The position numbers and the translations under genes were made by a program. Shown here one piece after another: positions 20,101 through 55,700 of a stretch of 64,000 nucleotides of DNA. Each line of letters starts with the position of its first letter. Within the stretch, counting starts at the first letter, position 1. Source of the stretch: Antedon mediterranea (Eukaryota; Echinodermata; Crinoidea; Comatulida; Antedonidae); NCBI RefSeq assembly GCF_964355755.1, contig NC_092675.1, forward strand, positions 1,369,001 through 1,433,000, read 5' to 3'. Below the pieces are notes generated by a model. It was not told where the DNA came from. It was given only the letters and a program-made list of their open reading frames with translations, and ran no database searches.

Positions 20101-23100
20101 TCAGATTTTGAATAGGTTAAAGAAGCAATTGTAAATTCATACCTTATAAATGTATGCAGACCTCGCACTTGGGTTGTATCTTTTACTTTATACAGTGTCT
20201 GTGGTAGAGGTTGGTCAACATGAGCGGACAGTAAATCAGCCCTATTTGTGTAAAAATAAAAATATAATAATATAAAAATAATGGTGTCCAACAAAAAGTA
20301 TATTTATTCTGAAATTATTCAGTGTTTCTTTTTTTCTTTTAATGAAATTTTAATTTACCTAGACTTTCCAGGCCTCGGAAAATTCTTTTTAGGTTTTTAT
20401 GCATGAAACCTCTTAAGCAAATCATTTTACCTTAAAAAAAGCCTACAAAAGGAAGGTGGGGTCATCAGCTCCTAACACATCAGAAATAATGTCCTATTGC
20501 TTGATTTTCCCTGTAAATTTGTATTGCTAAATTCTGGTTAATATATATAATATACAAGAATACCAATATAATTGAAACGTACCTAAAATTGAATCCTCTC
20601 TGAAATATAAGAAAGTAAGAGTAATAGAATTGTAATGGTTTTACTATTTTGATAATGTAAGAATTCCTAGTTCTTATTTACCATCATGTAAATTGAACAT
20701 TGCAATTTAGGCAATGTCTATCAAAACTTGTGCTGTTTACAGTAAAGGTAAAAATAATCAACATTAATTTTAGTTGTAGGTAAATTTATTTAGTTGTAGG
20801 TAAGTTGTTGGTAAGCTGTAGGTAAGTTGTAGGTAAGCTGTAGGTAAGCTGTAGGTAAGTTGTAGGTAAGCTGTACATAAGTTGTAGGTAAATTGTAGAT
20901 AAGTTGTAGGTAAGTTGTAGCCCTTCAAAACTTACCAACTCCAATTGGTCATGGACATGTTGTACTATCAAACTCATTGCAACTTCATTTTCTGCACCTG
21001 AGTATAACATATAGAATAATTACAATGTTATTGTTGGATATTGCTGTGCATCAAATTACATTTCTTCAGGCGTTGTCTTCTGTTGTGAAGTTGAATGACA
21101 ACATTCCTCTATCAAAAAGTGGTATGGACGAAAACATTTAATATACCATATATGACAGAGTAAATCCCATGCCAGTACCATATTTATTGTAAGCTAAATT
21201 CAGATATTTGATCTTGGTAAATTCTACTGTCAATACAATCCAAGTATTTTCCCCAATAAATTAATTTAAGAAAATATTTTTGTATATTTCTTTGTTTTTT
21301 CATTGTTTGTTTTATATGTTTTATGCGGGCCCCTTGACTGTCAGCACGTGCTGTTTAGGGTTACCCTCTCTAAATAAGGTTAAATAAATAAAATAAATGT
21401 ATTGCAATATTTTGACTTACCCCTTGGAACCACAATATCTGCATACTGAATTGAAGGTTCTATAAACTGCTCAAACGAAGGCTTTACAAACTTATTGTAT
21501 TGCTTAAGAACGCCAACTAAATCACGCCCTCTTTCAGAAATATCACGCTTCAACCTCCTCGCCAGTCGTATATCTGAGTCAGTATCAACAAAGATTTTCA
21601 TATCCATTATCTAAAATTCAATTTTTTTTAAATTAGCCGTAATTAATATTAGAAAATATTGTAAAAAAAATACTGTAGATCTATGAGAAGTGGCAATAAT
21701 TTATATCAATGAAAAACTTGTTTAAAATGGAAAGAATTCAACTGTGTTTAGAGTAGTATACTGAAATTGAATTGATTGAAATTGGTAGGGAATTCCACAG
21801 ACTTGGATCTGCCAAATAAATAGTTTGTTTAAACAATTCCATTGAGTTGAGTCTCTTTCAGTTCCATGTCAACTCAGTTCCATGTCGTAATTAGTAGCAG
21901 ATCAAGGATTTTGAAATAGGGGTGCCCAGTGGCTGGCTGGGAACCACCCCTGGAAATAATGATTTAGATTAGAAACTCACTAAAACGTATTGGGAGAGTA
22001 TCTGACACATAATTTCAATAACGTACAGATAACTAAACTGTATATAAACAAGTATTTAAGAGTAATAACACTTACATCTAAAAGTCGTTTGTTTGCAAAT
22101 GATAAAATGCCCTCAAATATTACAACATTAGCTCCATACATAACTTTCTGCAAATTGAAAAGCAAAAGTTTTAATTTGTCAATGAATATTAAACCTTCAG
22201 TAGCATGTATGTGCAAGGCAATCTAACAACAGGACACTGTGCTTGCCTTGTCAAGATAGGAACTCACAACAGTCCTGTGATTTACTTGGAACTGATCGGG
22301 TCGCAGCCACAGATAAACCATTTGATCTCCAGAGCTCAGCATCTTGTGTTAGATTGCCTGGTAGATGTATCGATTGTCACTGGGTAGTAACTACATTCAC
22401 TACACTACATACATTAATTAATTCATTCATAATATTTCACCTTTTCCTTTTGCCGTGCATGAGTTGTAAAATCATATATCGGAACCTGTAAATAAATATT
22501 CAAGAAATTAACAATATTACTATATTCATTTTTTCAATCCAATTTATTTATTCTTATAAGATACATCACCTTATGTAACAAACAAAAATGAGAGTTTTTA
22601 AAAAGGTAGAATGCACTTATGCTGGAGAAACTTAAATAAGCCCAGAGCCACAAGAAAAAAAACAGTATATAAAAATAATCATTCATAGAACGTATAATAA
22701 TAATAATAAATTATTATATAATAAAACAAAACTCTGAAACTATAGGTTGTTGGGCAATGAGTTAATACTGGTCACATAACAATTAATTATTTTGACCCAA
22801 TTAAATCCAGTGCCATCAAGGCTTTAGAGTCAAAGGATCAACTTTATTTAAATATTGTATTTACCTCAACACGTTTGCCTTCTTTTAATTTCTTTAGTGT
22901 TTTAATTAGGAGGTCATAATCAAACGCATCAGGGTGATCAAAATTGTATTCATTTTCAGCAGCTTTAATATGTTGTTCTTCATTTAAAACCTAAAGAGGA
23001 AAAAATGGCAAATTCATTATTTCTGAAAAGTCAAAAAAATTACATAATAAATATTCTCAAAACAAAATGTTCAAACTCCTTGAAAAAGTGTAGTTTTGAG

Positions 23101-30176: not shown

Positions 30177-33100
30177 TTAGAAATTTACTTTCTTGTTTCT
30201 AAAAACAAACTGTTTCAAATAATGCCGCTCGTTGTACTTATTTACATCCTCTTCAATCTGACATCCTGCAGATGTATCAATGTGAAATCCTTGACAGTTA
30301 TCTTTTCTTAAACACTGTAAAGCACATCTCATGTACTTAACTGTCATTTTAACTCCAAACTCAGACACCCCTGAGTTCACTCCACGAGGCTCGACAAATT
30401 GGAAATAAACACTGGTATCTGAAAGACAAATACGGACTCGGAAAATGATATATGTTGGAGTTGATTTTACTTTAGGCGTGATGTGTAGGTTGTGGCCGGT
30501 TTGCTTATAGAAATCCCAAAATAATGTTAAAACGCGCAGAAATTTCATTTAAAAATATATACGCAGACGCATGAAACGTGTTCAATTTTATTTTGCCTTA
30601 TTATTGACAATATAGAAATTATCGGATTATAAATTATAAATCGTTTTTTTTTACTTGGTATTTACACCTCAAACTAATCACTTACCCTGCTCACAGATAT
30701 ATCCGTCAGAGTTTGAGTTCAAATCAGCGGTCACATCAATGTCTAGGAGCATCATACCTTTAGTATCAATTCTGGTGCCAGCTATAACTTCTCTGCTAGT
30801 GCCCGGATCTTCCGGATTCCACGCAATCGAAGAATCAAAATCTTGTCCTGTTTCCCATTTCCAGTTTGTATCTTCGTTACCTAATCCCGCCTGACGTGAT
30901 AATCCGATGGCGTATATACCTTCTTTGAAAACGGTATTAACGTAGTCGAGTACTGCAGTAACTTCACCACTGGTAAGAAGACTAGCAAGATATCCACCAG
31001 AAGACTCACATGTAGCCTTTGCATCAGACCACGTCATTATTGTTTCATAACGTAACGTCGTTATAACGTAACGTGACCACTTGTATAATAATTCAGCATA
31101 ATCTTTTGAGAAATACAAGAAAGTGCATAAAACTCATGTCACCTAAATAGAAAAACGTCATTTGTAATATTTATTCTGTGATCTTTGTAAAAATTTCGTC
31201 TGTGAAAACAAAGGCTCTCTCCATTATATGAATTACACAATGTACTCAGAGACCACAGCATGACTTTGATAAAAATGCTATAGACCGTTTTAATTTACGC
31301 TGATAAGTCGATTAATATTCAGTAACAATCTTAATATTTTACTCAGAAAATCTCATAAATCCATTTTTTGTTTAGATATCTTTTTAAATCAAAAAAATAA
31401 TTCACATTTCTAAAATAGAAAATTGCATATTATTAACAAGATAGTTTTTGTCTTAGTGTTTTGGGGTAATCTGTTTTGAGTCAGTCCTAGAATGTTTGAC
31501 GTTAAGGCGAGTAGGTGACTATTGTCACACCATTATCTATCATGCGCACCTGCAAACACTTAGACATAAATTACTTACTTTCTTCGCAAATAAAGCCCTT
31601 GAAGTACATGTTCAAATTCTCGTCTTCATTAACGTCCACCAATTCGACATTATTGGTAAAAATGGCAACACCAGCTCTTTTGCTATTGATACTATTGGGA
31701 TCACCAGGAAGCCATGGAATAATAGAGGAATCGAATTCTTGGTCTGTTTCCCATTTCCAGTTGTTGTCCTTGTTTATTTCTAATCCCGCCTGACGTGATA
31801 ATCCGATGGCGTATCCACTTGCTCCGTAGACGGTATTAACGTAGTCAAGTACTGCTGTAACTTCATCATTGTTAAGAAGGGTAACAAGATAGCCACCAGA
31901 AGACTCACATGTAACCTTTGCGTCAGGCCATGTCGTTACGTGTTGTTCGTTAAACATCGTCACAATGTACCGTGACACTTATACAGTAAAGCAGCATCGC
32001 CTTTAAAATAACAAAAGTTAAATCACACATCAACATTTGAAGCATTGCTTTTCTTGGTTTGATTTGATCAAACGTGTGGATTTTTTTAAGCATAAGAACT
32101 TAAAAATAACAATATCTTCAAACAGTATTAATGGAGAGGAAAATATTGTGATCTTTAACACAATATGCAGGTTGTTATTACTTAAAATACATAAACAAAA
32201 GAGAGTGCAGTGTCCTTAAGATTGCCATTTCTTCTAGGCATTTATATTTTAGGAGGAGGAATAATTTATCTCAACAAACTTACTTTCTTCACATATATAC
32301 CCCTCTGAGTATGTGTTCAAAATATCCTCAGCGTCAGTATCTATCAAATAGATTCCAGTAGTATGGATTCTCACACCAGCTGCTATATTGTTGTCGCTAT
32401 TAGGATCATCAGCATGCCACGTAACAGAAGAACCAAACGTTTGTCCTATTTCCCATTTCCAGTTTGTATCTACTTATTTATCTAATCCCACCTGACGTGA
32501 TAATCCGATAGCGTATCGACCTTCTCCGTAAACGGTATTAACGTAGTCGAGGACTGCAGTCAGTTCATCATTGGTAAGAAGACTGACAAGATATCCACCA
32601 GAAGACTCACAGTCAGCTTTTGCATCAGACCACGTCATTTCTAGTTGATCCTTTAACATCTTTACAGTGTACCGTGACCACTTGTATTTCAATTCAGAAT
32701 CACCTTTGGTAAACAATGAAAATACACATACTTGGATTCTGAACAAATGAGGATTGAGGTAATCATATAAAATGGTTTATATTCAATTGTTAAGTTTGTA
32801 AGGTAACCCAGGGTGTTTAATCATTGCTAATATTTGGATTTTTCTTTCAATATTTTCTATTATTCTGAACAAATGAGGATTGAGGTAACAATCATAATAT
32901 GGTTCATATTCAATTGTTAAGTTTGTAAGCTAACCCAGGGTAGTCTAATCATATTTCTAATATTTGGATTAGAATAAATATCTCTAAATAAGTTTTTTAA
33001 TGTATCGTTGTATATTTTGAATAGATTAATTTGCAATGCACAAACAAAGAATGCTCCATTGCAAGATTATGGTTCTCTCAGCTTTCCAGTCCCATTATCG

Positions 33101-33634
33101 ATAATTTTAAAATTTACAGGATTTGTCATTAAAATCCCGGATACCCTAAATGATACAATTTATAGATAAATATAAACGGCAACAAGTAATAGTAGTAGTA
33201 ATAATCTTACTTACTCTGTTCACATATATACCCATCTGAATTTGAGTTTATACTACCATCTGCTGGTGTGTCCATCAAAACCATATCAGTAGTACGAATT
33301 CTCATGCCAGCTGTAATAGCGACATCAGTATCAGGATCATGAGGATTCCACTCAATATTAGAACCAAACTCTTGTCCTATTTCCCACTTCCAGTTTGTAT
33401 CTACCTCTCTATATAATCCCGCCTGACGTGATAATCCGATGGCGTACGTACCTTTTCCATAAACGGTATTAACGTAGTCGAAGACTGTTTTCAATTCATC
33501 ATTTGTAAGAATACTAACAAGATAGCCACCAGAAGACTCACAGTCAGCTTTTGCGTCAGACCACGTCATTGGTTGTTGGTTATTCAACTTCGTCACAGTG
33601 TACCGGGACCATTTGTATTCAAATTCAGCATTGC
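30177..33634 (-). pseudogene. Copy C: decayed four-CTLD plus PAN lectin gene
   Basis: Exons in order: CTLD1 33215-33634, CTLD2 32284-32703, CTLD3 31579-32000, CTLD4 30686-31102 and PAN 30177-30418. This is a near-identical copy of gene B (36397-40090), introns included, about 6.2 kb away. Two lesions are visible. In CTLD2 the Tyr codon that follows VGLDK in gene B is TAA here (32474-32476). In CTLD3 one base is missing at about 31978-31981, so the exon is 422 nt instead of 423 and the frame ends soon after. CTLD1, CTLD4 and PAN remain open. No signal exon like those of A and B lies upstream, though an unrelated candidate is at 34827-34878. Skipping both damaged phase 1-1 exons would keep a shorter open protein, so limited function cannot be excluded. 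Assembly error is an alternative cause. Confidence 0.85.
32735..32975. repeat. Two-copy tandem duplication inside a lectin intron
   Basis: The stretch beginning TTCTGAACAAATGAGGATTG and ending near CTAATATTTGGAT occurs twice, about 130 bp apart, between CTLD2 and CTLD1 of copy C. The same double arrangement occurs in gene B at about 38958-39198. The small duplication therefore predates the duplication of the whole gene. Confidence 0.85.
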
Positions 33635-34261
33635 CTTTTGGAAGACAATTACATACATCAAAGTTATCGTTCTTGATTATTTATTGAAACGTTTAGTTTA
33701 ATACATAACAGTAGGTAACCCTTTTTAATAATTGTTTTAAAAATGCTTTCAAGCACTATTTTGCGTCTTACTATTTTCGCACGTTAAAAAAAAAAGTGTT
33801 GATAAGATAATTATTCTTAACAAGATAATTAATCACGATATTGATTAGGTTCTTGCACCAGACCACAAACGTGTCTGTTCTCTGTGTATAATTAAGACAA
33901 TCAAACACAATGGTGTACGTCTTTGCGTAACGTTTACGTTGCGCGCGTAGGTTGCGTCGCTAGTGGGAAAACCACGCTTTTGATATACAAGCACAAGGCA
34001 AGAGAACACTGGAAAAACATGGAACATCGCGGGTTGGGGGTATGCGGGGGGGGGGTGAATCAGATCAAGTTTATGGCTGGAAACTGATTTTGGGTTTACA
34101 ACCCCCTCAAACAAGCCCAAAAATAAATAATTGTGGTTGTATGTTTAATAATAATAATAACAGGATTTTTATAGCGCACATACCACTCAAGAGTGCTCAA
34201 GGCTGGAATATAAAAAGTTCTGTAATAAAAATGAGAGTTGCTTTTTGTTGAAGTGTATTAG

Positions 34262-34701
34262 TGTTTCAATTTAATTTATTTCCACAATATAATAACATAC
34301 ATACAGGATAATAAATGCAATGAAGTAATAATGTGGGGGGAGGGGGAGAGTCATATAAGTCAGAAAGACTTTAAGTTTGACCCACCCCAAGATATAAAAT
34401 TAAATACGAATATGAAAAAGAAAAAAAATAGACATAAACTAATAATAAATAAAAGAAAACAAAGCTACAATTTCTATTAAACCATATTATCCGATCTTAA
34501 CAGGTCTTATAAAATATATATATATTTAACGTTCATCATATCTTGAAAGTAAATAGTTCCTGTATATACTAATTTAAATTTAGAAGTTGTAGATGCATTT
34601 TTAATATCTACATGGATTGAATTCCATAATTTAGCTCCTTGATATTTAATAGAGTTCTTGATCAATTTGTAACATTTTTCATATTTGCGCGTTTGATTCA
34701 A
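34262..34701 (-). mobile_element. 3' end remnant of a non-LTR retrotransposon (LINE)
   Basis: On the minus strand a 64-codon frame (34507-34701) contains IKYQGAKLWNSIHVDIKNAS and then FKLVYTG. This resembles the very C-terminal end of many LINE reverse-transcriptase proteins (pattern GAKLWNSLP..I....S...FK). It is followed by a non-coding tail that ends AATAAATTAAATTGAA. The rest of the element is missing. The family assignment is from motif memory only. Confidence 0.6.
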
Positions 34702-34826
34702 AATGATCTAGATTGCCCTGAACGCCAAACCGGGCCCTTGGCCCCAGCCCATTGTTCCTCGCTTCGCTCGCAAAATACTCAATTATACTAAATACTATAG
34801 ATAAAAATAATAAAATAAACCTCTAC

Positions 34827-34878
34827 TTATCAGGTCCAGAATCCAAGGAAAAAAGACGAAGAATTTCCAGCCAACCAT
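34827..34878 (-). other. Candidate signal-peptide exon upstream of copy C
   Basis: On the minus strand, ATG at 34876-34878 opens MVGWKFFVFFPWILDLI, a short basic and hydrophobic stretch typical of a signal peptide, and a GTAGAG donor follows in phase 1. Genes A and B also begin with a signal exon that ends in phase 1, although with a different sequence. It could supply the start of copy C, or be chance. Distance to CTLD1 is 1.2 kb. Confidence 0.35.
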
Positions 34879-36396
34879 TGTGATCGAAGCAATCCAACTT
34901 TAGTATAACAATAACGGTTATAACAAGACGTTGTATATCAATTCCCACACGTTATCACTGCCATATTAAGTACCGTAATTGACGCTGCAAACGGTAATTC
35001 ATTATTCGCTATGTAGTAAAATATATAATACGCCAGTTATATAGGCATATTTTGAATTAACGGTTGGTTTTATAATGTAGTGTGTCGTGTGAAAGATGTA
35101 AAGCCAACATATGGAAAAGTAATTAATGTCATACCATGGTTATCAACTTTAACTATTCAAACAAAATGCTAAATTTCCAATAATGTTATTATTCTATGCA
35201 CAGAAAACGTGTTTTAAATAATTCATGTATGTTTTTTAAATTTCAAATTTAAAAAGGCCTATATATTACATAATAAAACTTTACTTTTAAGAGAATAATA
35301 ACGCAAACAATTTTAATAATGCTATAGTTATCAATTTTAACTATTCAAAAAAGATGCTAAATTTCCAATGATGTAGTTATTCTATGCACAGAAAACGTGT
35401 TTTAAATAATTCGTGTAAGTTTTTAATTAGAAAAGGCCTATATATTACATACTAAAACTTTACTTTTAAGAGAATAATAACGCAAACATGATACTAAAAT
35501 ATCAATAAAAATATAATATAATAATACAAAAGGAAAAACAACGCTAGATGATGAAACGCGCGCCAGTGGTTGAGAATGAAACCTTTTAGGTTTCAAAACG
35601 TTCTGTAAGTTCGCTTACAATGTTTTTACAAAAAGAAACCTTTGTTATACCAAAAGGGCGTGGTTTAAATAATCTAAATTAAAAATATCATACAATCGCA
35701 GTGAAAATATTAAATACTTGTTAACACACCATGCGATATTATCTCTAGGACAATACATATACAAAAATGCAATCGAGTATCTAAAGTTTTAAAAAGACAT
35801 TTTTGGAATGAAGAAATGTGACCCGTTTTGTGCCTGTTCCTTGCGTTAGCCATGCTAAGAAGTCCAGGCTGATCATGCTAGAGTATAGACATTTTTGTTT
35901 ATTTGTATTTAGTGGGACTTAATTCTAAAATGGTTAAATACATAACAAGTGCAATATTAAGTATAATGAATACAAAAAACATTATTCAAAGGTCACAAAT
36001 ATATCTAATATAATTACAATAAACCCCTTATCATAATCTAACAAATGAGTTAAGGTTTTTCAATCTAAAGATCATCTAATAAAATACTGTGTTATACTCT
36101 CTTTCTTTATCCCTCCAATTACTACCGTAATTGCTTTAAGTTAATGTCGCCATAGAGGTAACATTAGGATAAATCAATATTTCAATTTTAGTTTATAAAA
36201 AAGCATAGATAAATATACTTATGCATGATTTAATTATGCGAATACAATGTAAATAGTATGGAAAAATATTATTGTATCGAAGTTCAGGCAGTTCACATGA
36301 AGGGAAAATGCCGTTTCAAGGGGTACCTATGATGACAAATGTTCACTAGATACCTTTTCCAAACTTCTATTTCATGAAACTATATTAATTCTAATG

Positions 36397-39300
36397 TTAT
36401 TCATATAAAAGTCCGACTTTCTTGTTTCTAAAAACAAACTGTTTCAAATAATGCCACTCATTGTACTTATTTACATCCTCTTCAATCTGACATCCTGCAG
36501 ATGTATCAATATGAAACCCTTGACAGTTATCTTTTCTTAAACATTGTAAAGCACATCTCATGTATTCAACTCCAAACTCAGACACTCCAGAGTTTACTCC
36601 ATGAGGCTCGACAAATTGGAAATAAACACTGGTATCTGAAAGACAAATACGGACTCGGAAAATGATATATGTTGGAGTTGATTTTACTTTAGGCGTGATG
36701 TGTAGGTTGTGGCCGGTTTGCTTATAGAAATCCCAAAATAATGTTAAAACGCGCAGAAATTTCATTTAAAAATATATACGCAGACGCATGAAACGTGTTC
36801 AATTTTATTTTGCCTTATTATTGACAATATAGAAATTATCGGATTATAAATTATAAATCGTTTTTTTTTACTTGGTATTTACACCTCAAACTAATCACTT
36901 ACCCTGCTCACAGATATATCCGTCAGAGTTTGAGTTCAAATCAGCGGTCGCATCAATGTCTAGGAGCATCATACCTTTAGTATCAATTCTGGTGCCAGCT
37001 ATAACTTCTCTGCTAGTGCTCGGATCTTCCAGATTCCACGCAATCGAAGAATCAAAATCTTGTCCTGTTTCCCATTTCCAGTTTGTATCTTCGTTATCTA
37101 ATCCCGCCTGACGTGATAATCCGATGGCGTATATACCTTCTTTGTAAACGGTATTAACGTAGTCGAGTACTGCAGTAACTTCACCACTGGTAAGAAGACT
37201 AGCAAGATATCCACCAGAAGACTCACATGTAGCTCTTGCATCAGACCACGTCATTATTGTTTCATAACGTAACGTCGTTATAACGTAACGTGACCACTTG
37301 TATAATAATTCAGCATAATCTTTTGAGAAATACAAGAAAGTGCATAAAAACTCATGTCACCTAAATAGAAAAACGTCATTTGTAATATTTATTCTGTGAT
37401 CTTTGTAAACATTTCGTCTGTGAAAACAAAGGCTCTCTCCATTATATGAATTACACAATGTACTCAGAGACCACAACATGACTTTGATAAAAATGCTATA
37501 GACCGTTTTAATTTACGCTGATAAGTCGATTAATATTCAGTAACAATCTTAATATTTTACTCAGAAAATCTCATAAATCAATTTTTTGTTTAGATATCTT
37601 TTTAAATCAAATGAATAAATCACACATTTCTAAAGTAGAAAATAGCATATTATTAACAAGATAGTTTTCGTCTTAGTGTTTTTGGATCATCTGTTTTGAG
37701 TCAGTCTTGGAGTGTTTGTGAAGTTGAGGCGAGTACGTGACTATTGCCACACCATTATCTATCATGCGCATCTGCAAACACTTAGACATAAATTACTTAC
37801 TTTCTTCGCAAATGGAGCCCTTGAAGTACATGTTCAAATTCTCGTCTTCATTAACGTCCACCAATTCGACATTATTGGTAAAAATGGCAACACCAGCTCT
37901 TTTGCTATTGATACTATTGGGATCACCAGGAAGCCATGGAATAATAGAGGAATCGAATTCTTGGTCTGTTTCCCATTTCCAGTTGTTGTCCTTGTTTATT
38001 TCTAATCCCGCCTGACGTGATAATCCGATGGCGTATCCACTTGCTCCGTAGACGGTATTAACGTAGTCAAGTACTGCTGTAACTTCATCATTGTTAAGAA
38101 GGGTAACAAGATAGCCACCAGAAGACTCACATGTAACCTTTGCGTCAGGCCATGTCGTTACGTGTTGTTCGTTAAACATCGTCACAATGTACCGTGACAG
38201 ACTATACTGTAAAGCAGCATCGCCTTTAAAATAACAAAAGTTAAATCACACATCAACATTTGAAGCATTGCTTTTCTTGGTTTGATTTGATCAAACGTGT
38301 GGATTTTTTTAAGCATAAGAACTTAAAAATAACAATATCTTCAAACAGTATTAATGGAGAGGAAAATATTGTGATCTTTAACACAATATGCAGGTTGTTA
38401 TTACTTAAAATACATAAACAAAAGAGAGTGCAGTGTCCTTAAGATTGCCATTTCTTCTAGGCATTTATATTTTAGGAGGAGGAATAATTTATCTCAACAA
38501 ACTTACTTTCTTCACATATATACCCCTCTGAGTATGTGTTCAAAATATCCTCAGCGTCAGTATCTATCAAATAGATTCCAGTAGTATGGATTCTCACACC
38601 AGCTGCTATATTGTTGTCGCTATTAGGATCATCAGCATGCCACGTAACAGAAGAACCAAACGTTTGTCCTATTTCCCATTTCCAGTTTGTATCTACGTAT
38701 TTATCTAATCCCACCTGACGTGATAATCCGATAGCGTATCGACCTTCTCCGTAAACGGTATTAACGTAGTCGAGGACTGCAGTCAGTTCATCATTGGTAA
38801 GAAGACTGACAAGATATCCACCAGAAGACTCACAGTCAGCTTTTGCATCAGACCACGTCATTTCTAGTTGATCCTTTAACATCTTTACAGTGTACCGTGA
38901 CCACTTGTATTTCAATTCAGAATCACCTTTGGTAAACAATGAAAATACACATACTTGGATTCTGAACAAATGAGGATTGAGGTAATCATATAAAATGGTT
39001 TATATTCAATTGTTAAGTTTGTAAGGTAACCCAGGGTGTTTAATCATTGCTAATATTTGGATTTTTCTTTCAATATTTTCTATTATTCTGAACAAATGAG
39101 GATTGAGGTAACAATCATAATATGGTTCATATTCAATTGTTAAGTTTGTAAGCTAACCCAGGGTAGTCTAATCATATTTCTAATATTTGGATTAGAATAA
39201 ATATCTCTAAATAAGTTTTTTAATGTATCGTTGTATATTTTGAATAGATTAATTTGCAATGCACAAACAAAGAATGCTCCATTGCAAGATTATGGTTCTC

Positions 39301-40090
39301 TCAGCTTTCTAGTCCCATTATCGATAATTTTAAAATTTACAGGATTTGTCATTAAAATCCCGGATACCCTAAATGATACAATTTATAGATAAATATAAAC
39401 GGCAACAAGTAATAGTAGTAGTAATAATCTTACTTACTCTGTTCACATATATACCCATCTGAATTTGAGTTTATACTACCATCTGCTGGTGTGTCCATCA
39501 AAACCATATCAGTAGTACGAATTCTCATGCCAGCTGTAATAGCGACATCAGTATCAGGATCATGAGGATTCCACTCAATATTAGAACCAAACTCTTGTCC
39601 TATTTCCCACTTCCAGTTTGTATCTACCTCTCTATATAATCCCGCCTGACGTGATAATCCGATGGCGTACGTACCTTTTCCATAAACGGTATTAACGTAG
39701 TCGAAGACTGTTTTCAATTCATCATTTGTAAGAATACTAACAAGATAGCCACCAGAAGACTCACAGTCAGCTTTTGCGTCAGACCACGTCATTGGTTGTT
39801 GGTTATTCAACTTCGTCACAGTGTACCGGGACCACTTGTATTCTAATTCAGCATCACCTTTGGAGAACAATGAACATTTGTTTTGGGACAATTCTTCTAT
39901 AATATTTGAGAAAAGAGAATTGTCTTTCCAACAATCTGAACACCACGATTTGTTGGAAGACAATGGGAATACATTTTGCGATTTTTAAGTCTATAACCAA
40001 GTTTCTTTAATTGAAAAGTTATTACTTACTGAATCCAATGATAAACTGCACAGAGAAGAAACATAGGTACTGGATCTTTGAATAAAACAT
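36397..40090 (-). CDS. Gene B: secreted protein with four C-type lectin domains and a PAN domain
   Basis: Exons in order: signal 40030-40090, CTLD1 39438-39857, CTLD2 38507-38926, CTLD3 37801-38223, CTLD4 36903-37319, PAN 36397-36635. They total 659 aa. The signal exon encodes MFYSKIQYLCFFSVQFIIGF. Each CTLD starts near YKWSRYTV, then MTWSDAKADCESSGGYLVSL, YAIGLSRQ, NWKWE and ends GYICE. Every internal boundary is phase 1, so modules can be gained or lost without frameshift. Only the outer Cys pair is kept; the inner pair of typical CTLDs is absent. The Ca-binding triplet is replaced by HDP, DDP, GDP or EDP, and no WND motif is seen. The PAN/apple-like end has four Cys (RCALQC, DNCQGF, AGCQI) and lacks four residues (KMTV or similar) found in A and C. 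No membrane segment follows, so secretion is likely. The ligand is unknown. Confidence 0.85.
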
Positions 40091-40099
40091 TGTTGACAG

Positions 40100-42615
40100 A
40101 CCCAAAAAGCGTGCTTTAAATAATAACATACACACTCCTGCTTTACTATTATTGATATAATAGCTACATATATATATGACAAGAATGCAAACCAAGTTGT
40201 TACTCCAGCCTACCCTGTGGATCTTATTACTTTAAACGTTCCTGTACATATTACTTATAACTTGTTATTTTACTACAATAGCTTCCTCCGTGGTTTATTG
40301 ATTCAAAATTAATATTTCATTTTCGAAATGATAACAAGCAACACGAATCAATTAGTCTATCAATAAACTGTAGAAACGAAAGTAGGATTTTCATTACCAA
40401 TAAAATATATATTGTGCACAAGACTCACAGTCAGCACACAATATAATAATATCTTTGATATATAATAATCGACACTTATCTCCACGCAACGTGCTGTAGA
40501 TCTGCAACCAATTATACTTTACTTTATATTTCTTCCTTTTTTGTTATTGTTTTATTAATATCCAGTCTGAGATTATTACAATATCTACAATTAAATACAC
40601 AATGTAAGGTAGAAATCGTCGTTGTAATAGTAACATTATTCAACATTTAATTTATCTAGAATTGTATTGCTATTTTTACTTTTTAAACAAGTATACGTTT
40701 TGCTTTTTAATTAAGTTTCATTCGATTTTCCATTAATTAATGCCAGCTCATACGCAAGTCTTTTTTTAATGAAAATTTTTTCTTAAGTCCACCTTTACTC
40801 TTTTATAAGTATTTTTTTTTAATTTTTTTATTTTAACTTTCTCCACTCGCTCATTCAATCCAACCGCCAACAAAGCGTCGATTTTATTTATTTATGGTAT
40901 GTTATGGTAGAATCATTGTTGTTGTTATTTAATAAAATAATTGTTTCAATTCATTCATGACAGTAGTGTTATACAGTACACTTGCTTTGTCAAGATGGGA
41001 ACTTGTAACAGTCCTTTGATCTTAGGTCGGGCTGCGACAAATACCAACAGTACTGTAATGTACATATTACACGCGGTGTTTATTAAGGGACGTGGAACTG
41101 ATCGTGTCGCGGCCACAGATAAACCCTTTGATCCATTCTGTTGCCTTGGTTATACTTTTTTGTTCAATACTTTTCAAGTTAGTCATCGAAAATTTTAATT
41201 ATCTCCCACTAAATGTTTCTCCGTTTTAAACCTTGTGCCATCTTATCGCTTTGTAAGAAAGAAAGAACAAATGGTATAAGTGCTTTTGCTTGCATTTATT
41301 ACAGTTTAATTGGCGAATACGGTATTAAAATACGATAGTAAAATAGATCAACAACTTTAAATCCGTAAACAAACCCAATGATTGATATCAATTTCTAAAC
41401 TGACGTTAAACAACTGTATAAATGTAGGTAAGTGAGTCAATAAAAAGGACAAACATAAAACAACAGAGACAAACTACCAGAGTGCATAACCTAAAGAATA
41501 ACAACATCAAAAATGTTTAAATAAACGATTACAAATATATTATTTTTTGAAATATTTATCTGCAGACAAGGAAAGTAAAATAGAGCATTTCAAACAATCC
41601 GTTTTGTTTATCTAAGGTGATTTTACTTTTAACGTCTGAGAGTTGATATCAATGCATTTAAAGGTTTGAAATTTTATAATATCAAAGGTAAATTTTGCTT
41701 TGAAAATATATATATTTGCAGTAGTTTATGATAACATACCAGCTATAGCATTATATCTTATTTTAATTGGGGTGTTACCCATAAAAGTGTACAAATGGTG
41801 CATAAAAACCAAATGGAAAATATATTAATGGTATTGTTGTATTGTTTCATTATTTTTTTGTATTGTTGACCATTGATAGAAATTAATAGATATATGATAG
41901 GGCCTATACTGAAACAATTATTCAAACATACTATAAAATAATGCTATTATTCTATGCGCATAAAGCGAAAATACTTTCTTTTTAGTGGGAACATTATGAT
42001 TGGATTTTGAATTATTCTGTTCAAAACATGATTAAAATAACACATAAAAATGGAGCAGTAAAACTAATTGAACCGGGATAACCAACAATGTTTTAAATAA
42101 TAAACTTATTTCCAGTTCTTAGTAACAATTATGAGTCATGTGTTTAATTGTAGTTTTGATCATTTTGATCTTCGTACTCGTGTCTCTTATAGGTATTGCT
42201 TTTATTTGTATTTATGCAGCCTTAATGTTACTAATAATGTTATGTTTTCTATTGACCATCACAAAACAATGATCTATAAGTAAGTATATACAATTACAAC
42301 CAATGTACTAGTAGGAGTTCTAGACGGAGTTTTGACTTAATATTAGTAAAAAGATAAATATGTTGGCACATATGGCGTTTCATACGTATACTAGAAAAAT
42401 AAATAAAAACGACAATAAATACAGACTTGGTGCAAGTCTACCAATGTACCTTAAGAGCATAATACACCTAAATGCGATGTTTTATAGTCTGTTTAAAAAT
42501 ATATTGCATTTATGATGTCAGAATAAATACATATTACACTATAATATACATCATTTAACAATTAGTCTATATAGTTATAAACTTTTATAAGCGTAAATTC
42601 TGGTAAAAATGTCTG
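40100..42615. other. Spacer between lectin genes B and A
   Basis: AT-rich sequence without a recognisable exon. It contains one copy of the dispersed CAAGGCAATC-type repeat at about 40975-41140. Gene B regulatory sequence should lie near its left end and the 3' end of gene A near its right end. Confidence 0.55.
40975..41140. mobile_element. Dispersed repeat, third copy (interior only)
   Basis: TTTGTCAAGATGGGAACT, AACAGTCCTTTGATCTTA, ACTGATCGTGTCGCGGCC and AGATAAACCCTTTGATCC match the copies at 22205-22368 and 16240-16470. The terminal CAAGGCAATC parts are degraded. Confidence 0.6.
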
Positions 42616-42621
42616 TTTATT
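42616..42621 (-). terminator. Candidate polyadenylation signal of lectin gene A
   Basis: AATAAA on the minus strand in GTCTCAATAAACAGA, about 20 bp after the stop codon of the PAN exon. It is very close but canonical. Confidence 0.4.
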
Positions 42622-42641
42622 GAGACGTGTTTTCTCTGTGG

Positions 42642-45600
42642 TCACAGTACAAACGGGAAAATAGCTGGTTTGTTGTATAACAAACCGACCCTTTTGTTTC
42701 TAAAAACAAACTGTTTCAAATAACGCCGCTCATTGTACTTATTTACACCCTCTTCAATCTGACATCCTGCAGATGTATCAATGTGAAATCCTTGACAGTT
42801 ATCTTTTCTTAAACATTGTAAAGCACATCTCATGTACTCAACTGTCATTTTAACTCCAAACTCAGACACTCCAGAGTTCACTCCACGAGGCTCGGCAGAT
42901 TGGAAATAAACACTCATATCTGAAAATACAAATGCCGTCTAATTTAAAGCGTAACGTGCATAGGTACGTTAAAATTATTGTCAATTTGAACGTTCATCAA
43001 GATAGAAAGCACATTCATTTTCAATCTATTGTAAAAGATGAAGTATTTAAAATTTGAATTTAGAAATTATCAGATTAATTCGCAATTGTAATCTGTGAAG
43101 GGTTTGTACTAAATGAAGGCAAACTTTATTTTAAATAGGTTTGCATTTTTTCTGAATTTGAAAGTTAACAAACCGAAATAAATACTGTGTTTGTTTTCAA
43201 GAGAGAAAACACAATCATTTTCACATTGTTTTAATTTCTCAAAATAATGGAGATTCACTTACCCTGCTCACAGATATATCCGTCAGAGTTTGAGTTCAAA
43301 TCAGCGGTCGCATCAACGTCTAGGAGCATCATACCTTTAGTATCAATTCTAGTGCCAGCTATAACTTCTCTGCTAGTGCCCGGATCTTCCGGATTCCACG
43401 CAATCGAAGAATCAAAATCTTGTCCTGTTTCCCATTTCCAGTTTGTATCTTCGTTACCTAATCCCACCTGACGTGATAATCCGATGGCGTAGATGCCTTT
43501 GTGAACAGAATTAACATGCTCGAGTACTGCAGTAACTTCATCATTGGTAAGAAGACTAGCAAGATATCCACCAGAAGACGCACAGTCAGCCTTTGCATCA
43601 GACCAGGTCATTGTTGTTCCAGAATGTAATGTCGTTAAAATGTACCGTGAACGCTTGTGCAGAAATTCAGCATAACCTTTGGAAATTAAGGTTCATATTG
43701 TAAGATCAATTAATAATCATTGATTAATTACTACAAATAAAGCTCTACTGTAATATTTTAAAACACATTGTGAATAAAAATGGTTCTCATAATTACTTAC
43801 TTTCTTCGCAAATGAAGCCCTTGAAGTACCTGTTCAAATCCTCGTCTGCATCAACGTCCACCAATTTAACACTATTGGTAAAAAGGGCAACACCAGCTCT
43901 TTTGGTCTTGATGCTATTGGGATCACTAGGAACCCATGGAATAATAGAGGAATTGAAGTGTTGGTCTGTTTCCCATTTCCAGTTTTTGTCATTTTTTATT
44001 TCTAATCCCGCCTGACGAGATAATCCGATGGCGTATCCACTTGCTCCGTAGACGGTATTAACGTAGTCGAGGACTGCTGTAACTTCGTGATCATTAAGAA
44101 GGGTAACAAGATAGCCACCAGAAGACTCACAGTCAGCTTTTGCATCAGACCAGGTCGTTTCCTTTTGATCGTCTAACATTGTTACAGTGTACCATGACAA
44201 ACTGTAATATAATCCTGGATCACCTAAAATACATATCAAAAAAACATTGTTACCTCTTAATGACAATTCTGTCAATATTCAACTGAAACTGTTTTTAAAA
44301 CAAAAAAGTCTTTACGAAGTTATCACAAACCTATAACGACATTAATATACCATATAATCATACAGCTACACTGAAAGTAATCAATAATTTAAAATCAATA
44401 AATCCAAAAAATAACAGTCCTAATATACAGTTACATAATAATAACGCAAAATATAGTATGACCTGGGAGGTCTCGTACGTTTGAAATTGTTTCCATTTCT
44501 GTGTGTCTTATTTAAATTGTTACCTTACCCACCTCTTGTAGGCTATAAATTAACATTTAAACTGTAACCTAGAGCTGTTTTTGTTTTGTACGATGTTTAT
44601 ACCTTTAATTTAATTGTGTAATTTTATAATGTTTTATTAATAAAGATGTTTATTTCGTAGCCATATAAACGTACTCTGTTCACATATGTATCCATCTACG
44701 TTTAAAGTATACTCTGCATTCCTGTCTCTCAAGAACACAGCATCCTCAGTAAGAATCCTAACGCCAGCTGTTTCGTCGATGTCAACACTAGGCTCACCGG
44801 GATACCACTCAATATTAGAACCAAACTCTTGTTCTATTTCCCATTTCCAGTTTGTACCTTTGTTACCTAATCCCGCCTGACGTGATAATCCGATGACGTA
44901 ACTGCCTGCTCCATAAACGATATGAACATACTCGAGTACTGCATTCAGTTCATCACTGGTAAGAAGACTGACGAGGTAGCCTCCAGAAGACTCACAGTTA
45001 GCTTTTGCATCAGACCAGGTCATTTCTAGTTGATTATTTAACATCTTTACAGTGTACCGTGACCATCTGTATGTTAATTCGCTATCTAAATAAGTACGGT
45101 AAATATGTAAATGTATAAACAATTAATAATAAATTAGAATTCTGTATATTGCCTTTTTAGTCTGAAGATTGAGGTAGCTGTCAATGTATAATAAATTGAT
45201 AAAGGCACTGTGATAACAAGCAGTTTTAAAAATACTACTGTATTTCGCTATGTCATTTTTTAAAAGAATGATATGGTCACTTTAAACTCAAAACCAAACG
45301 TTTCTTTTGCCATTATCGGTACTACTAAAAAGTGTTAAAAGTAAAATAGTATTTAGAATTGGTCAAATATATGCAGAAATACGATTTTATCTCATAAACA
45401 AAACATTATTTAAAATTGGGGCCTAAAATGCAAAATGTTGTGTGGCTTTCAGACTTTAGAGTTTTTGATGGCGTAATAATAACTTTAATTCACTTACTCA
45501 GTTCGCATATATAACCGTCTGAGTTCAAACTAGCCTCTGTATCAGTGTCCATCAATACAGAATTAGTAGTATGAATTCTCACGCCAGCTTTACTCGTTAC

Positions 45601-47969
45601 ATTAGTGTCGGGATAGTTGCGATTCCACGCAATATTAGAACCAAACTCTTGTCCTATTTCCCACTTCCATTTTTTATCTACGCTTCCATCTAATCCCGCC
45701 TCACGTGATAATCCGATGACGTATACACCTGCTCCGCAAAAAACGTTAACGTAGTCAAGCACTAAATTCAGTTCATCATTGGTGAGAAAACTAACAAGAT
45801 AACCACCAGAAGACTCGCAACCAGCCTTTGCGTCAGACCAGGTTGTTGCTGACTTCGTCACAATGTACCGTGACCATCTGTAGTCTAATTCACCATCTCC
45901 TTTGGAAGACAATGAAAATAGAAACATTTGAAGAAACTACTATCATGAAACAGGATTGTCACTGTGGTGTATGTAAAAGCCCTACCTACGATGGTGGAAC
46001 TCGAACCTAACATACAAACCTAATAGTAAAACTTGTTAAGTTTGCAACTTGTCTTTGGTAATTCAATATTACTATTAAATAACTAAGACAACAAACTGTC
46101 TGCCACTTTCAATAAGCCTATCTTGAACGCATAACAGCAAAGACGAGATTTTTACTATAATCTCATGATACAAGTGACTTCAATTTCCATTATCGTTACT
46201 AATAAACAAAATCAAAATACTTACATTACATTTTTCTACTTTGCCCTCTAACGGATTTGGACTGGCATTTAATTTAAGTTTAAATAATACCGTAATATCA
46301 ACAAATAGAGATATAATGTTTATAATGTTATAATGTTTGTGATTTTCTATATTGAAAGAAAACTTACTATATTCACATATATACCCATCTGAGTTTGAGT
46401 TCAAAGTAGTCTCTGCATCAATTTCCTTCAAAGCAATATCCGTAGTATCAATTCTGACGCCTGTTTTACTCGTTACGCTATTGTAAGGATCTAGAGGACT
46501 CCATGGAATAATAGAAGAATCAAAATCCTGTCCTGTTTCCCATTTCCAGTTTGTATCTACGTCGTTATCTAATCCCGCCTGACGTGATAATCCGATAGCG
46601 TATACACCTTTTCCGTAAACGGTGTTAACGTAGTCGAGGACTGTTGTCAATTCATCATCGGTAAGAAAACTAAGAAGATAGCCATCAGAATGCACACAGT
46701 CAGTCTTTGCGTCAAACCACGTCATTGCTCGTTGATCATGTAACATCTTCACAGTGTACCGGGACCATTTGTAATTTAAATTACCTTTGGAGAAAAAAAC
46801 ATAAAACAAGATAGCATTAACGCTGTAGTTAATGTTCTGGCAATATATAAACAATTACATTTATTGTGAAGGTTATTATAGATTAAATCATGGAGGAATT
46901 ATGTAATTGTAATTTTTTTATATTATATATTTCAAATTCAATATTACCTACCTTGTTGAAGAACAGTAGTACCTTATTAATTTATATTTTGTAATTGTTT
47001 ATGAAAGATGAAAGAAAGAAAATAAATGTTTACGTTCAAGTAATACCTCCATGATCTACTTTTTTGGTAGACGAGTAATGATTACTCAATAAACTTACTC
47101 TTTTCACATATATAACCATCTATGTGTGACCTTAATTTATCCTCTGCATTATAGTCTTTCAACTTAACATCAGACGTACGAATTGCCACGCCAGCTATGT
47201 CACTTTTGTTACTATTAGGCTCATCATGGTACCACCCAATATTAGAACCAAACGTTTGTCCTATTTCCCATTTCCAGTTTGCATCTACGTCTTTATCTAA
47301 TCCCGCCTGACGTGATAATCCGATGACGTATACCCCTTTTCCGTAAAACTCGTTAACATACTCGAGTACTGCAGTAACTTCACCACTGGTAAGAAGACTG
47401 ACAAGATATCCACCAGAAGACTTACAGTCAGCTTTTGCGTCAGACCAGGTCATTTCTGGTTTGTACTCCAACATCTTCACGGTGTACCGGGACCACTTGT
47501 ACTGTAATTCAGCATCGCCTTTAGAAGACAATCAACCAAAATCAACGCTATCATTCTTGCTGTATTAGCAGTTACTTTCATAGCAATGATGATAATATTT
47601 GTAATATAAAATATTCATAAACTCCTGGTTGAGATTTACCCTATCAAGTTTGATAATTAAATTTATATAAAATAAAAGTAATAATAGTTTTAAAGCTTCT
47701 TTCGTCTTCAATTATAAATTTCAAATACTGCAAAGTAACATATGTTAAAGTGATTCACTTTAACAATGTTGGAAGTAACTGGTTCAATCTATCAAGATGC
47801 CTTAATTTGAAATTGTTTGTTATAAAAGCCTAACATACATTCTAACGTTTTAATATTATTAATTGTTTTAAAATTTATAGAAATACAGTTATTATTAGGC
47901 CTACTTACTAAATCCAATGATAAATTGTACAGAGAAGAAACATAGGTACTGGATCATTGAAAAAAACAT
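42642..47969 (-). CDS. Gene A: secreted protein with six C-type lectin domains and a PAN domain
   Basis: Exons in order: signal 47909-47969, CTLD1 47099-47518, CTLD2 46368-46784, CTLD3 45498-45899, CTLD4 44675-45085, CTLD5 43801-44223, CTLD6 43263-43676, PAN 42642-42919. They total 941 aa with all boundaries in phase 1. The signal exon encodes MFFSMIQYLCFFSVQFIIGF, nearly that of gene B. CTLDs share DAKADCESSGGYL-like, VIGLSR or AIGLSR, KWKWE or NWKWE, and GYICE. CTLD1 carries EPN within WYHDEPNSN and CTLD4 carries EPS, closer to the classical mannose-type triplet than in gene B, but WND is absent. CTLD3 has an additional Cys (NVFCGAG). CTLD5, CTLD6 and PAN correspond to CTLD3, CTLD4 and PAN of gene B. 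The PAN exon ends in a hydrophobic tail after FVFRNKR. A secreted multivalent lectin or adhesion protein is the likely role. The ligand is unknown. Confidence 0.87.
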
Positions 47970-49753: not shown

Positions 49754-52700
49754 CTATGAATATGCTGCCACTAGGTTTTTGGCTTCAATATAGACATCTT
49801 CATTTTGTACATGATACAGGATATCTACTAGAGTGTTCTCAACTGCTGATTGGTTCGCTGCATTTTGGATTGGTTCATACTCACAAACATCAGTTGGAAG
49901 AGGGTGCTTGAAATTTGGTCCAAAATTTGCCCGCACCTAAACAAATATACAGTAATTAGTTGGCTTAAAATACATTAATTTTGTAAACAGCTTTTACAGT
50001 ATGACTAAATGGGTTTTATTGTTAAAATCCAAAGTAAGTACTATGACCTTTAACTGACTTCCACCAAGGCTTTAACCTTTAACCTTTGTGGGATGTAACC
50101 CACTTAATAGATAGAAACATATTAATATAATGTAAATTGTGTTTCTATTTGTGTTGCATTTTTTTGGTGTCTCTTGTATAGGTGACCCTTCACAAGTTGT
50201 TTAATTTTTGGGTTTAGCCTTTCTTAACTCTCTTTTCTCTTAATAACTCTCTTTTCTCTTAACTCTCTTCTCTCTTAACTCTCTTTTCTCTTAACTCTCT
50301 TCTCTCTTAATAACTCTCTTCTCTCTTCTCTCTTAACTCTCTTAACTCTCTTCTCTCTTAACTCTCTTAACTCTCTTCTCTATTAACTCTCTTCTCTCTT
50401 AACTCTCTTAACTCTTAACTCTTAACTCTTAACTCTCTCTTCTCTCTTCTCTCTTAACTCTCTTCTCTCTTAACTCTCTTCTCTCTCTTTTCATTTTTTT
50501 ATTCTACTGTATAAAATAAATAAAAGAACTAAATGTAGTGATTGATTGAACACTAGAGGCGACCATCTCTGATAACTAAATGTAGTGATTGATTGAACAC
50601 TAGAGGCGACCATCTCTGATAACTAAATGTAGTGATTGATTGAACACTAGAGGCGACCATCTCTGATAACTAAATGTAGTGATTGATTGAACACTAGAGG
50701 CGACCATCTCTGATAACTAAATGTAGTGATTGATTGAACAATAGAGGCGACCATCTCTGATAACTAAATGTAGTGATTGATTGAACACTAGAGGCGACCA
50801 TCTCTGATAACTAAATGTAGTGATTGATTGAACACTAGAGGCAACCATCTCTGATAACTAAATGTAGTGATTGATTGAACACTAGAGGCGACCATCTCTG
50901 ATAACTAAATGTAGTGATTGATTGAACACTAGAGGCAACCATCTCTGATAACTAAATGTAGTGATTGATTGAACACTAGAGGCGACCATCTCTGATAACT
51001 AAATGTAGTGATTGATTGAACACTAGAGGCAACCATCTCTGATAACTAAATGTAGTGATTGATTGAACACTAGAGGCGACCATCTCTGATAACTAAATGT
51101 AGTGATTGATTGAACACTAGAGGCAACCATCTCTGATAACTAAATGTAGTGATTGATTGAACACTAGAGGCGACCATCTCTGATAACTAAATGTAGTGAT
51201 TGATTGAACACTAGAGGCGACCATCTCTGATAACTAAATGTAGTGATTGATTGAACACTAGAGGCAACCATCTCTGATAACTAAATGTAGTGATTGATTG
51301 AACACTAGAGGCGACCATCTCTGATAACTAAATGTAGTGATTGATTGAACACTAGAGGCGACCATCTCTGATAACTAAATGTAGTGATTGATTGAACACT
51401 AGAGGCGACCATCTCTGATACGGGTCATTCCATGTCAAATCACCCAATGGGTTAAACCCTTCTTTCTTCAAATTTGCTCAAATTTGGTTTTTGGGTTATT
51501 TTTAGCTAAAAAACCTGAAATTTTTAATTTGAGCGCCATACGACCAACGGTTCGCGCGCTACGCGCCGTCGTTTCTTTGCGATTTTGCGCAAAATCGACG
51601 CGGCGGGCTATACTTAAATGACCGTATCTTCATAACGTGTGGACCGATTTTGTTTTGACAGGTATCTTTGGAAAGCTAATTGTTAAAGCTATCCAAATCT
51701 TCTATTTACTTTTGAGATAGAACTATTTAAAAGATGTATAACTTATTCTATTCCATTTGACCTAGGATTTGACCTTGTGGGACAAATTTTTTTTAGATGA
51801 AATTTTGTGAAAATTATCTCCTACATGATATTTACATAATATAAAAAAATTGGAGAAATATTATTTTTTGTTTGCTTTCTAGCTCATTTCAAAGTTGGCT
51901 TACTTCAACAATTCTGGTATTTCTATACAGTGTAGATGTATTGTCGACATTATATCACTACCAAATTTACCTCTTAATAATACTATGGGTTTCACTGTCA
52001 GATTATTTAAGACTATAACAATGCTTTAATTATATTTTCATGCTCCATACAAAATAATTATTACTTAGGTAAACATCTGTACACCATTTGACTACCCCAT
52101 TTGGTTAGCCAAGGATGTACCATCAGTTTATGGCACTCTTTTCACACTTTTAAGCAAATTGAATCTTGAATTTTTTTTGTTTGATGATATAAACTTTGAA
52201 ACATTGATTGTTCTTTGCTGTTAATCATTATTTTACATTTTTGTTCATTGTATTTTGTTTTGTATTTCTTCACTCATAATTAGGCTATAATTACAATATA
52301 AACGGCATGGACCGGGGTGACGATACGTGGGTTGGGGCAAGTAGGGTCCAGTCATTTCAAGTAAAAATACCACTTGCCCCGGTCCATGCCGTCTAGCTGC
52401 CATTTTATGCAATTTTAAAACATTACTACAATTTTAACATTTTTATAAAAAATGCAATATAACCACATGATTTATAAGGCTATAATTACGTTATAAACGG
52501 CATGGACCGGGGTGACGATACATTGGTTAGGGCAAGTAGTAGTAGTCAATGCATAAAATTACCACTTGCCCCAACCCATGTATCGTCACCCCGGTCCATG
52601 CCGTTTTATAACGTAATTATAGCCCTATAAATTTATGTGGTTATATTGCATTTTTTTATAAAAATGTTAAAATTGTAGTTATGTTTTAAAATTGCATAAA

Positions 52701-55700
52701 ATGGCAGCTAGACGGCATGGACCTGGGCAAGTGGTATTTTTCTGAAATGAGTTTACCCTACTTGCCCTAACCCATGTATCATCACCCCGGTCCATGCCGT
52801 TTATAATGTAATTATAGCCCTATATATCATGCATTTATATTGCATTTTTTATAAAAAAAATTTAAATTGTAGTAACGTTTTAAAATTGCATAAAATGGAA
52901 GCTAGACGGCATGGACCAGGGCAAGTGGTATTTTTATGCAATAACTGGACCCTACTTGCCCCAACCCATGTATCGTCGCCCCAACCCATGTATCGTCTCC
53001 CCGGTCCATGCCGTTTTATAACGTAATTATAGCCCTATAAATTCATGCATTTATATTGCATTTTTTATAAAAATGTTAAAATTGTAGTAATGTTTTAAAA
53101 TTGCATAAAATGGCAGCTAGACGGCATGGACCGGGGCAATTTTTACTTGAAATGACTGGACCCTACTTGTCCCAACCCACGTAACGTCACCCCGGTCCAT
53201 GCCGTTTATAACGTAATTATAGCCTAATTATGAGTGAAGAAATAAGTGAACAAAATACAATGAACAAAAATGTAAAATAATGATTAACAGCAAAGAACAA
53301 TCAATGTTTCAAAGTTTATATCATCAAACAACAAAAATTAAAGATTCAATTTGCTTGAAAGTGTGAAAAGAGTGCCATAAACTGATGGTACATCCTTGGC
53401 TAACCAAATGGGGTAGTCAAATGGTGTACAGATGTTTACCTAAGTAATAATTATTTTGTATGGAGCATGAAAATATAATTAAAGCATTGTTATAGTCTTA
53501 AATAATCTGACAGTGAAACCCATAGTATTAAGAGGTAAATTTGGTAGTGATATAATGTCGACAATACATCTACACTGTATAGAAATACCAGAATTGTTGA
53601 AGTAAGCCAACTTTGAAATGAGCTAGAAAGCAAACAAAAAATAATATATCTCCAATTTTTTTATATTATGTAAATATCATGTAGGAGATAATTTTCACAA
53701 AATTTCATCTAAAAAAAATTTGTCCCACAAGGTCAAATCCTAGGTCAAATGGAATAGAATAAGTTATACATCTTTTAAATAGTTCTATCTCAAAAGTAAA
53801 TAGAAGATTTGGATAGCTTTAACAATTAGCTTTTCAAAGATACCTGTCAAAACAAAATCGGTCCACACGTTACGAAGATACGGTCATTTAAGTATAGCCC
53901 GCCGCGTCGATTTTGCGCAAAATCGCAAAGAAACGACGGCGCGTAGCGCGCGAACCGTTGGTCGTATGGCGCTCAAATTAAAAATTTCAGGTTTTTTGGC
54001 TAAAAATAACCCAAAAACCAAATTTGAGCAAATTTGAAGAAAGTAGGGTTTAAAATGTCATTTTTTTTGGGTGATTTGGTATGGAATGACCCATAACTAA
54101 ATGTAGTGATTGATTGAACACTAGAGGCGACCATCTCTGATAACTAAATGTAGTCATGGATTGAACACTAGAGGCGACCATCTCTGATAACTAAATGTAG
54201 TCATTGATTGAACACTAGAGGCAACCATCTCTGATAACTAAATGTAGTGATTGATTGAACAATAGAGGCGACCATCTCTGATAATTAAATGTAGTGATTG
54301 ATTGAACACTAGAGGCGACCATCTCTGATAATTAAATGTAGTGATTGATTGAACACTAGAGGCGACCATCTCTGATAACTAAATGTAGTCATTGATTGAA
54401 CACTAGAGGCGACCATCTCTGATAATTAAATGTAGTCATTGATTGAACACTAGAGGCGACCATCTTTGATAAATAAATGTAGTGATTGATTGAACACTAG
54501 AGGCGACCATCTCTGATAACTAAATGTAGTCATTGATTGAACACTAGAGGCGACCATCTCTGATAACTAAATGTAGTCATTGATTGAACACTAGAGGCAA
54601 CCATCTCTGATAACTTTGTATACTTACAACAGCATTCTTATAAAGTGAAATAGATGGGTAATACGTCCCTTCATATACATCTTCATATGCAACTCCTTGA
54701 CATACGCCATTTTTATAGAAAATTACCTGAGAAAAATATAGATTTTTAATTTAAACATTGTATAGCCGTATAACTAATTTTGATATAAGTTCGCGGTACA
54801 CCACGTATGTTAGTTCTGAAAAGAAGTGTTGAGTTTCTCGTCGTTTCGATCAATATGCTTTCGAAACGTCGAGTAACTCAACACTTCTTTTCAGAACTAA
54901 CATACGTGGTGTACCGCAAACTTATATCAACATTTGATTTCGCCATGCAACCTTCAAACAATATAGTATAACTAATTATTTTAGTATTTATTATTTCTTT
55001 ATACTGGGTAGTCCCTTCAGTCAAAGAGGGCCCAGTTATGATGAGTGGCTGTGTGCGACAGTGGCTGTCTGTGCACTAGTACTCCTACTTGCGTATATTG
55101 TTATACAAATAATGAATGTTTATGAGTGTAATGGTACAAATAATGGCATGAGGTGAATGATGAAAGGTTATATCAACGAGGCACCGCCGAGTTAATATAA
55201 CCTTTCATCATTCACCAAATGCCATTATTTGTACCATTACACGAATATAAAACATTCATTATTTGTTTTTTATGTCAACAAACGACCAAACAATCCTAGG
55301 CCTAGCAAGGCTAAAACGCCTAGGCTAGGCCTAGCCTAATACTAACAGGACTAGCTAGGCTAGACCTACCTAGTAGTAGGCCTAGTACTAGATTGGCTGA
55401 AAGGCAAAACTTTGACAGACAATTGGAACTTATCTTGGCTAATTATGGTCTTCCACGTCATGTAGGGATGTCCCCATTAATTAATCAAAATCCTAAACAC
55501 AATCTAAAGCTAATTTAAATGCCTTTTTGAATGAAATTAGTACATATATATCTCCAAATCGTACACAAAAATCTGCTGCTGTTGCATATCTTGCGGTGGT
55601 GTTTACAAACAACAGAGGCAGGACGACAGGTGGCGCTGTTGTATTTCACAGTAATTTTTGTATTCTAAATTTTTTTTCATCCACGAAACGTTTTTTTTTT

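Follow-up and report, generated by a model that had tools for sequence, protein, structure and literature searches.

The locus described here raises the question of how genes that encode four or six CTLDs ahead of a single PAN-like tail came into being, and what use their products might have. It lies in a 64,000-nucleotide stretch of the Antedon mediterranea genome (contig NC_092675.1, positions 1,369,001 to 1,433,000), which was analysed as a whole and is called the window below; all window positions are counted from its first letter.

Exon anatomy and domain content of the locus

Within the window, 14 CTLD exons and three PAN-like exons are found on the minus strand, making up genes A and B and a further copy, C. 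They span positions 30177-47969, as the initial annotation had placed them, with the stop of copy C at one end and the ATG of gene A at the other. The joining of exons in A, B and C was inferred from the sequence.

Gene A (47969-42642, minus strand) encodes 941 aa in a signal exon, six CTLD exons and a terminal PAN-like exon. Exon 1 (47909-47969) holds the start codon and a signal-like hydrophobic segment, MFFSMIQYLCFFSVQFIIGF, and ends in phase 1. It is followed by CTLD exons 1 (47099-47518, 420 nt, phase 1-1), 2 (46368-46784, 417 nt), 3 (45498-45899, 402 nt), 4 (44675-45085, 411 nt), 5 (43801-44223, 423 nt) and 6 (43263-43676, 414 nt), the last two being the counterparts of CTLDs 3 and 4 of gene B, and then by the PAN-like exon with the stop (42642-42919). 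Gene B (40090-36397, minus strand) encodes 659 aa and has the same plan with four CTLD exons: a start codon and signal-like segment, MFYSKIQYLCFFSVQFIIGF, in exon 1 (40030-40090), CTLD exons at 39438-39857, 38507-38926, 37801-38223 and 36903-37319, and a terminal PAN-like exon (36397-36635) that carries the stop and, compared with A and C, a 12-nt deletion. The spliced reading frames of both genes run without any interruption.

Copy C (33634-30177, minus strand) has four CTLD exons and a terminal PAN-like exon, and a search for its signal exon found none. The second CTLD exon (32284-32703) contains an in-frame TAA, and the third (31579-32000) has lost one nucleotide, which leaves it at 422 nt and shifts the frame. 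The first (33215-33634), the fourth (30686-31102) and the terminal exon (30177-30418) are open, and skipping the two broken exons would leave these three in frame. The earlier description of two open genes and one decayed copy therefore holds, as does that of the CTLD exons: intact ones are 402-423 nt long, divisible by three, with AG/GT ends and phase 1 at either end, and every intron of A, B and C is in phase 1.

The domain search that the initial annotation had proposed as a check placed Lectin_C above its cut-off in both genes and the PAN models below theirs. Six Lectin_C domains (PF00059) were found in gene A (E=9e-45, 152 bits over the six), and the first CTLD of gene B scored 30 bits against a curated cut-off of 22.6. 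At E<=0.001, the structure model of one CTLD, of moderate quality (mean pLDDT 68), matched 224 PDB chains. Among the matches listed, the best were CTLDs, with mannose receptor CRD4 and Endo180 leading at E of about 1e-5.

Across all CTLDs, two cysteines alone are constant (alignment columns 31 and 139). They form the outer pair, so that the CTLDs of A and B lack the set of two conserved disulfides (C1-C4 and C2-C3). Likewise, 24% of nematode CTLDs keep C1-C4 only (PMC5297725). The calcium-site proline is retained in all ten intact CTLDs of A and B, EPN occurs in the first CTLD of A alone, and WND is absent from all ten, where a single acidic residue remains; none combines EPN or QPD with WND as expected of a calcium-dependent sugar-binding C-type lectin. 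Judged by these residues, calcium-dependent sugar binding may have been lost. With the inner cysteines not conserved and the calcium-site motifs degraded, the domains are better termed lectin-like.

An exon of the kind that had been called a C-terminal PAN/apple-like domain, carrying the stop, is present in all three copies, but its identification proved weaker than claimed. In gene A it scored 13.5 bits with PAN_2 and 13.3 bits with PAN_4 against cut-offs of 21-27. Among 12 relatives, PAN_4 was matched in six and PAN_1 in three, with a best E of 0.0016, below threshold. These sub-threshold matches fell repeatedly in the same Pfam clan, the cysteine pattern RCAxxC, C, C is invariant in the 12 relatives, and a profile comparison with PAN_1 exons of the same genome gave P=1e-4 at a probability of only 55%. 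The structure model of the exon was poor (mean pLDDT 49) and no PAN fold was found; PDB searches with PAN profiles returned chance matches only. Given that the PAN scores lie below the curated cut-offs, the exon is named PAN-like. Matches to PAN_1 proper (PF00024) number at least 125 across the genome, some of them in large arrays on contigs C1 and C3.

The rest of the window holds exons of neighbouring conserved genes: a weak EIPR1-like WD exon (12595-12831), a uridine kinase exon (21380-21610) and an ASH2L-like winged-helix exon confirmed with Pfam (60364-60783). Near the ASH2L-like exons lies a minisatellite (57844-58770) in which a 27-bp unit occurs in 34 copies at 99% identity, and other repeat arrays occur at 3702-4118, 50527-51420 and 54093-54615. 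No Rfam family was found in the window. Elsewhere in the genome, a tektin exon scored 290 bits against a tektin from the sea urchin sperm doublet (entry 8snb) and 156 bits against mammals, which favours an echinoderm origin, and a COX1 search recovered no mitochondrial sequence.

Related loci and the origin of the multi-CTLD genes

The whole genome was searched with one CTLD and the PAN-like exon as queries. Outside the window, 15 of the 18 matches to the PAN-like query have a CTLD match of the same subfamily about 100-1,330 bp upstream of them on the same strand (four on contig C9, two on C4, two on C5, one at C6:3.48 Mb, five at C11:18.0 Mb and one at C11:16.8 Mb), and three have no such CTLD upstream. 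A further pair of CTLD and PAN-like exon at C11:9.48 Mb brings these loci to 16. Each has one CTLD except that at C6:3.48 Mb, where two CTLDs, sisters in the tree (support 99/94), precede the PAN-like exon.

The single-CTLD genes on C4, C5, C9 and C11 have CTLD and PAN-like exons that are related to those of the window genes and follow one another in the same way, with phase 1 boundaries where these could be read, but they have one CTLD in place of four or six. Seven of them also possess a signal-like first exon ending in phase 1, so that such an exon occurs in A, B and these relatives alike. Three PAN-like exons at C11:18006229-18022753, spaced by about 8 kb, encode identical protein sequence, which suggests that single-CTLD genes were duplicated there in tandem very recently.

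PAN exons that pass the Pfam cut-off follow more distant CTLD exons at C3:7.94-7.97 Mb (four cases), C6:18.96 Mb and C10:2.24 Mb, with two further cases at a distance of 5 kb at C6:6.68-6.70 Mb. These eight PAN matches compare with 0.25 expected by shifting (at most four in 500 shifts, with three contig sizes being estimates). With CTLD and PAN combined at 16 other loci and in these distant pairs, the possibility that the architecture is unique to this locus was rejected. A different multi-CTLD arrangement, four CTLDs in one open frame of 622 aa, was seen at C6:18588580-18590121.

In a tree of 33 CTLDs, those of the window fall into one clade together with one fragment from C9 (support 97/94), which indicates that the multi-CTLD genes arose through exon duplication at the locus. 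Within the clade, the sixth CTLD of A pairs with the fourth of B and the fifth of A with the third of B, the placement of the other A domains being unresolved. On C9, at 24.22 Mb, lies a 415-bp copy, at 92% identity, of part of CTLD exon 1 of B or C and the next intron. The intron sequence in it marks it as a piece of genomic DNA rather than a retrocopy; nearby, on the opposite strand, is a PAN_1 match.

In the reading proposed here, the ancestral gene would have had three exons: a phase 1 signal peptide exon, one phase 1-1 CTLD exon and a PAN-like exon with the stop. Copies of the CTLD exon would then have accumulated inside it, and the whole gene would have been duplicated as well, giving A with six CTLDs, B with four, and C.

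The resemblance of copy C to gene B

Copy C has a patchwork character, and parts of it are almost the same as gene B. The two align in a single collinear block of about 3.5 kb that is 97.8% identical, as expected if C were simply a recent segmental duplicate of B, with no gene conversion over an older copy. The differences are spread very unevenly, however: two substitutions occur over about 1.6 kb flanked by more diverged sequence, about 20 differences fall within 200 bp near 37815-37612, and the terminal exons are separated by a 12-nt indel and scattered changes, the 3' part in C having diverged from B. Synonymous divergence (dS) is 0.00-0.01 in CTLD exons 1, 2 and 4 and reaches 0.29 in the PAN-like exon. 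Moreover, the near-identity starts inside an exon, at about 33611 in the first CTLD exon of C. Since the differences are so uneven and the identity begins within an exon, gene conversion from B over an older duplicate fits best, and the patchwork is probably best read in this way; a plain recent duplication appears unlikely. Under the conversion reading, copy C, which has no signal exon, would have acquired its stop and frameshift and been partly overwritten by B.

Possible functions and comparison with known systems

Taking these results together, we propose, with a probability of about 0.6, that the locus is a tandem cluster of secreted CTLD-PAN proteins formed by exon and gene duplication, with copy C partly converted, and that its products are multivalent binders that likely serve in defence. 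Comparing A with B, dN/dS was 0.55-0.57 for the matched CTLDs and 0.26 for the terminal exon, suggesting that CTLDs and tail are both constrained, the tail more so. Variability among the CTLDs is greatest in the long-loop and hairpin columns, with dN/dS of 0.58 and 0.84 for regions whose boundaries were placed by eye; no CTLD region tested had a dN/dS above 1 that would speak for positive selection. Multiple diverged binding faces on a secreted chain suggest avidity-driven binding, and a conserved tail suggests a shared partner. The products of A and B might thus present CTLDs with diversified long-loop faces and bind surface ligands by avidity, while the more conserved PAN-like tail would make protein-protein or matrix contacts. 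Recognition in defence would be the most likely use, being our first choice because the genes are tandem, diverging paralogues. In a more far-reaching version, to which we give little credence, symmetrical CTLD exons would be gained, lost, converted and perhaps skipped, so that a few genes of a diversifying recognition locus could yield many secreted multivalent binders that differ in CTLD content but share a constant PAN-like tail.

The proteins might instead belong to the skeleton or extracellular matrix and bind mineral or matrix, as acidic proteins resembling those of the echinoderm spicule matrix. They are acidic indeed (pI 4.4-4.7), and CTLD proteins are present in the skeletons of feather star, brittle star and sea urchin (PMC7351957; PMC4336488), for which reasons a matrix role stays a rival. 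It is nevertheless a doubtful one: A and B lack a repetitive low-complexity region like that of the urchin proteins, the portions of the literature at hand describe no PAN-like tail for spicule matrix proteins, and many divergent tandem paralogues suit recognition better than structure. A role in adhesion, mucus or gamete recognition, with CTLDs binding glycans on surfaces or eggs, is more improbable still, for although secreted adhesives with CTLDs are known, such as flatworm ap1 (PMC8621496), these add vWD, C8 and TIL domains, none of which was found in gene A with Pfam. We thus retain defence recognition by secreted multivalent binders as the preferred reading. The locus clearly illustrates how a multidomain lectin-like protein can be enlarged by intragenic duplication of a phase 1-1 exon, with single-domain relatives of the enlarged genes persisting in the same genome.

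Among known systems, tandem CTLDs in one chain are shared with the mannose receptor family (MRC1, MRC2/Endo180, LY75), whose members, among the best fold and sequence matches of the window CTLDs, are membrane receptors that carry ricin-type and FN2 domains. These receptors have no PAN-like tail, whereas gene A has neither ricin-type nor FN2 domains by Pfam. In a hydropathy scan, nothing stood out as a clear membrane span, and the peak beyond the signal fell inside the third CTLD of A. The reading of A and B as mannose-receptor homologues was rejected.

The initial annotation did not recognise the combination of CTLDs and PAN as a named family, and in this respect it has to be corrected, since the combination recurs at the 16 loci described above and has been published for nematodes (PMC5297725) and cnidarians (PMC8260672). 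C. elegans has 16 class IV CTLD proteins with one or two CTLDs and one or two CW/PAN-3 domains (PMC5297725). They resemble A and B in bringing CTLD and PAN-type modules together in one predicted chain, and differ in having at most two CTLDs and PAN domains of the PAN-3 type, and evidence for common descent with A and B is lacking. In cnidarian CTLD proteins, PAN is among the common fused domains (PMC8260672); the likeness to A and B lies in the combination alone, the available part of that source giving neither domain order nor CTLD number. For echinoderms and amphioxus, no description of CTLD+PAN proteins was found in the literature covered. The locus suggests that an echinoderm genome holds a CTLD-PAN family of considerable size. 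Nor did the literature, partially covered, yield any protein in which a single C-terminal PAN follows four or six CTLDs. Compared with the nematode and cnidarian proteins, then, A and B still stand out by how many CTLDs each chain carries, and four or six of them followed by one C-terminal PAN-like domain make, as far as searched, a new variant of a combination already known from other animals.
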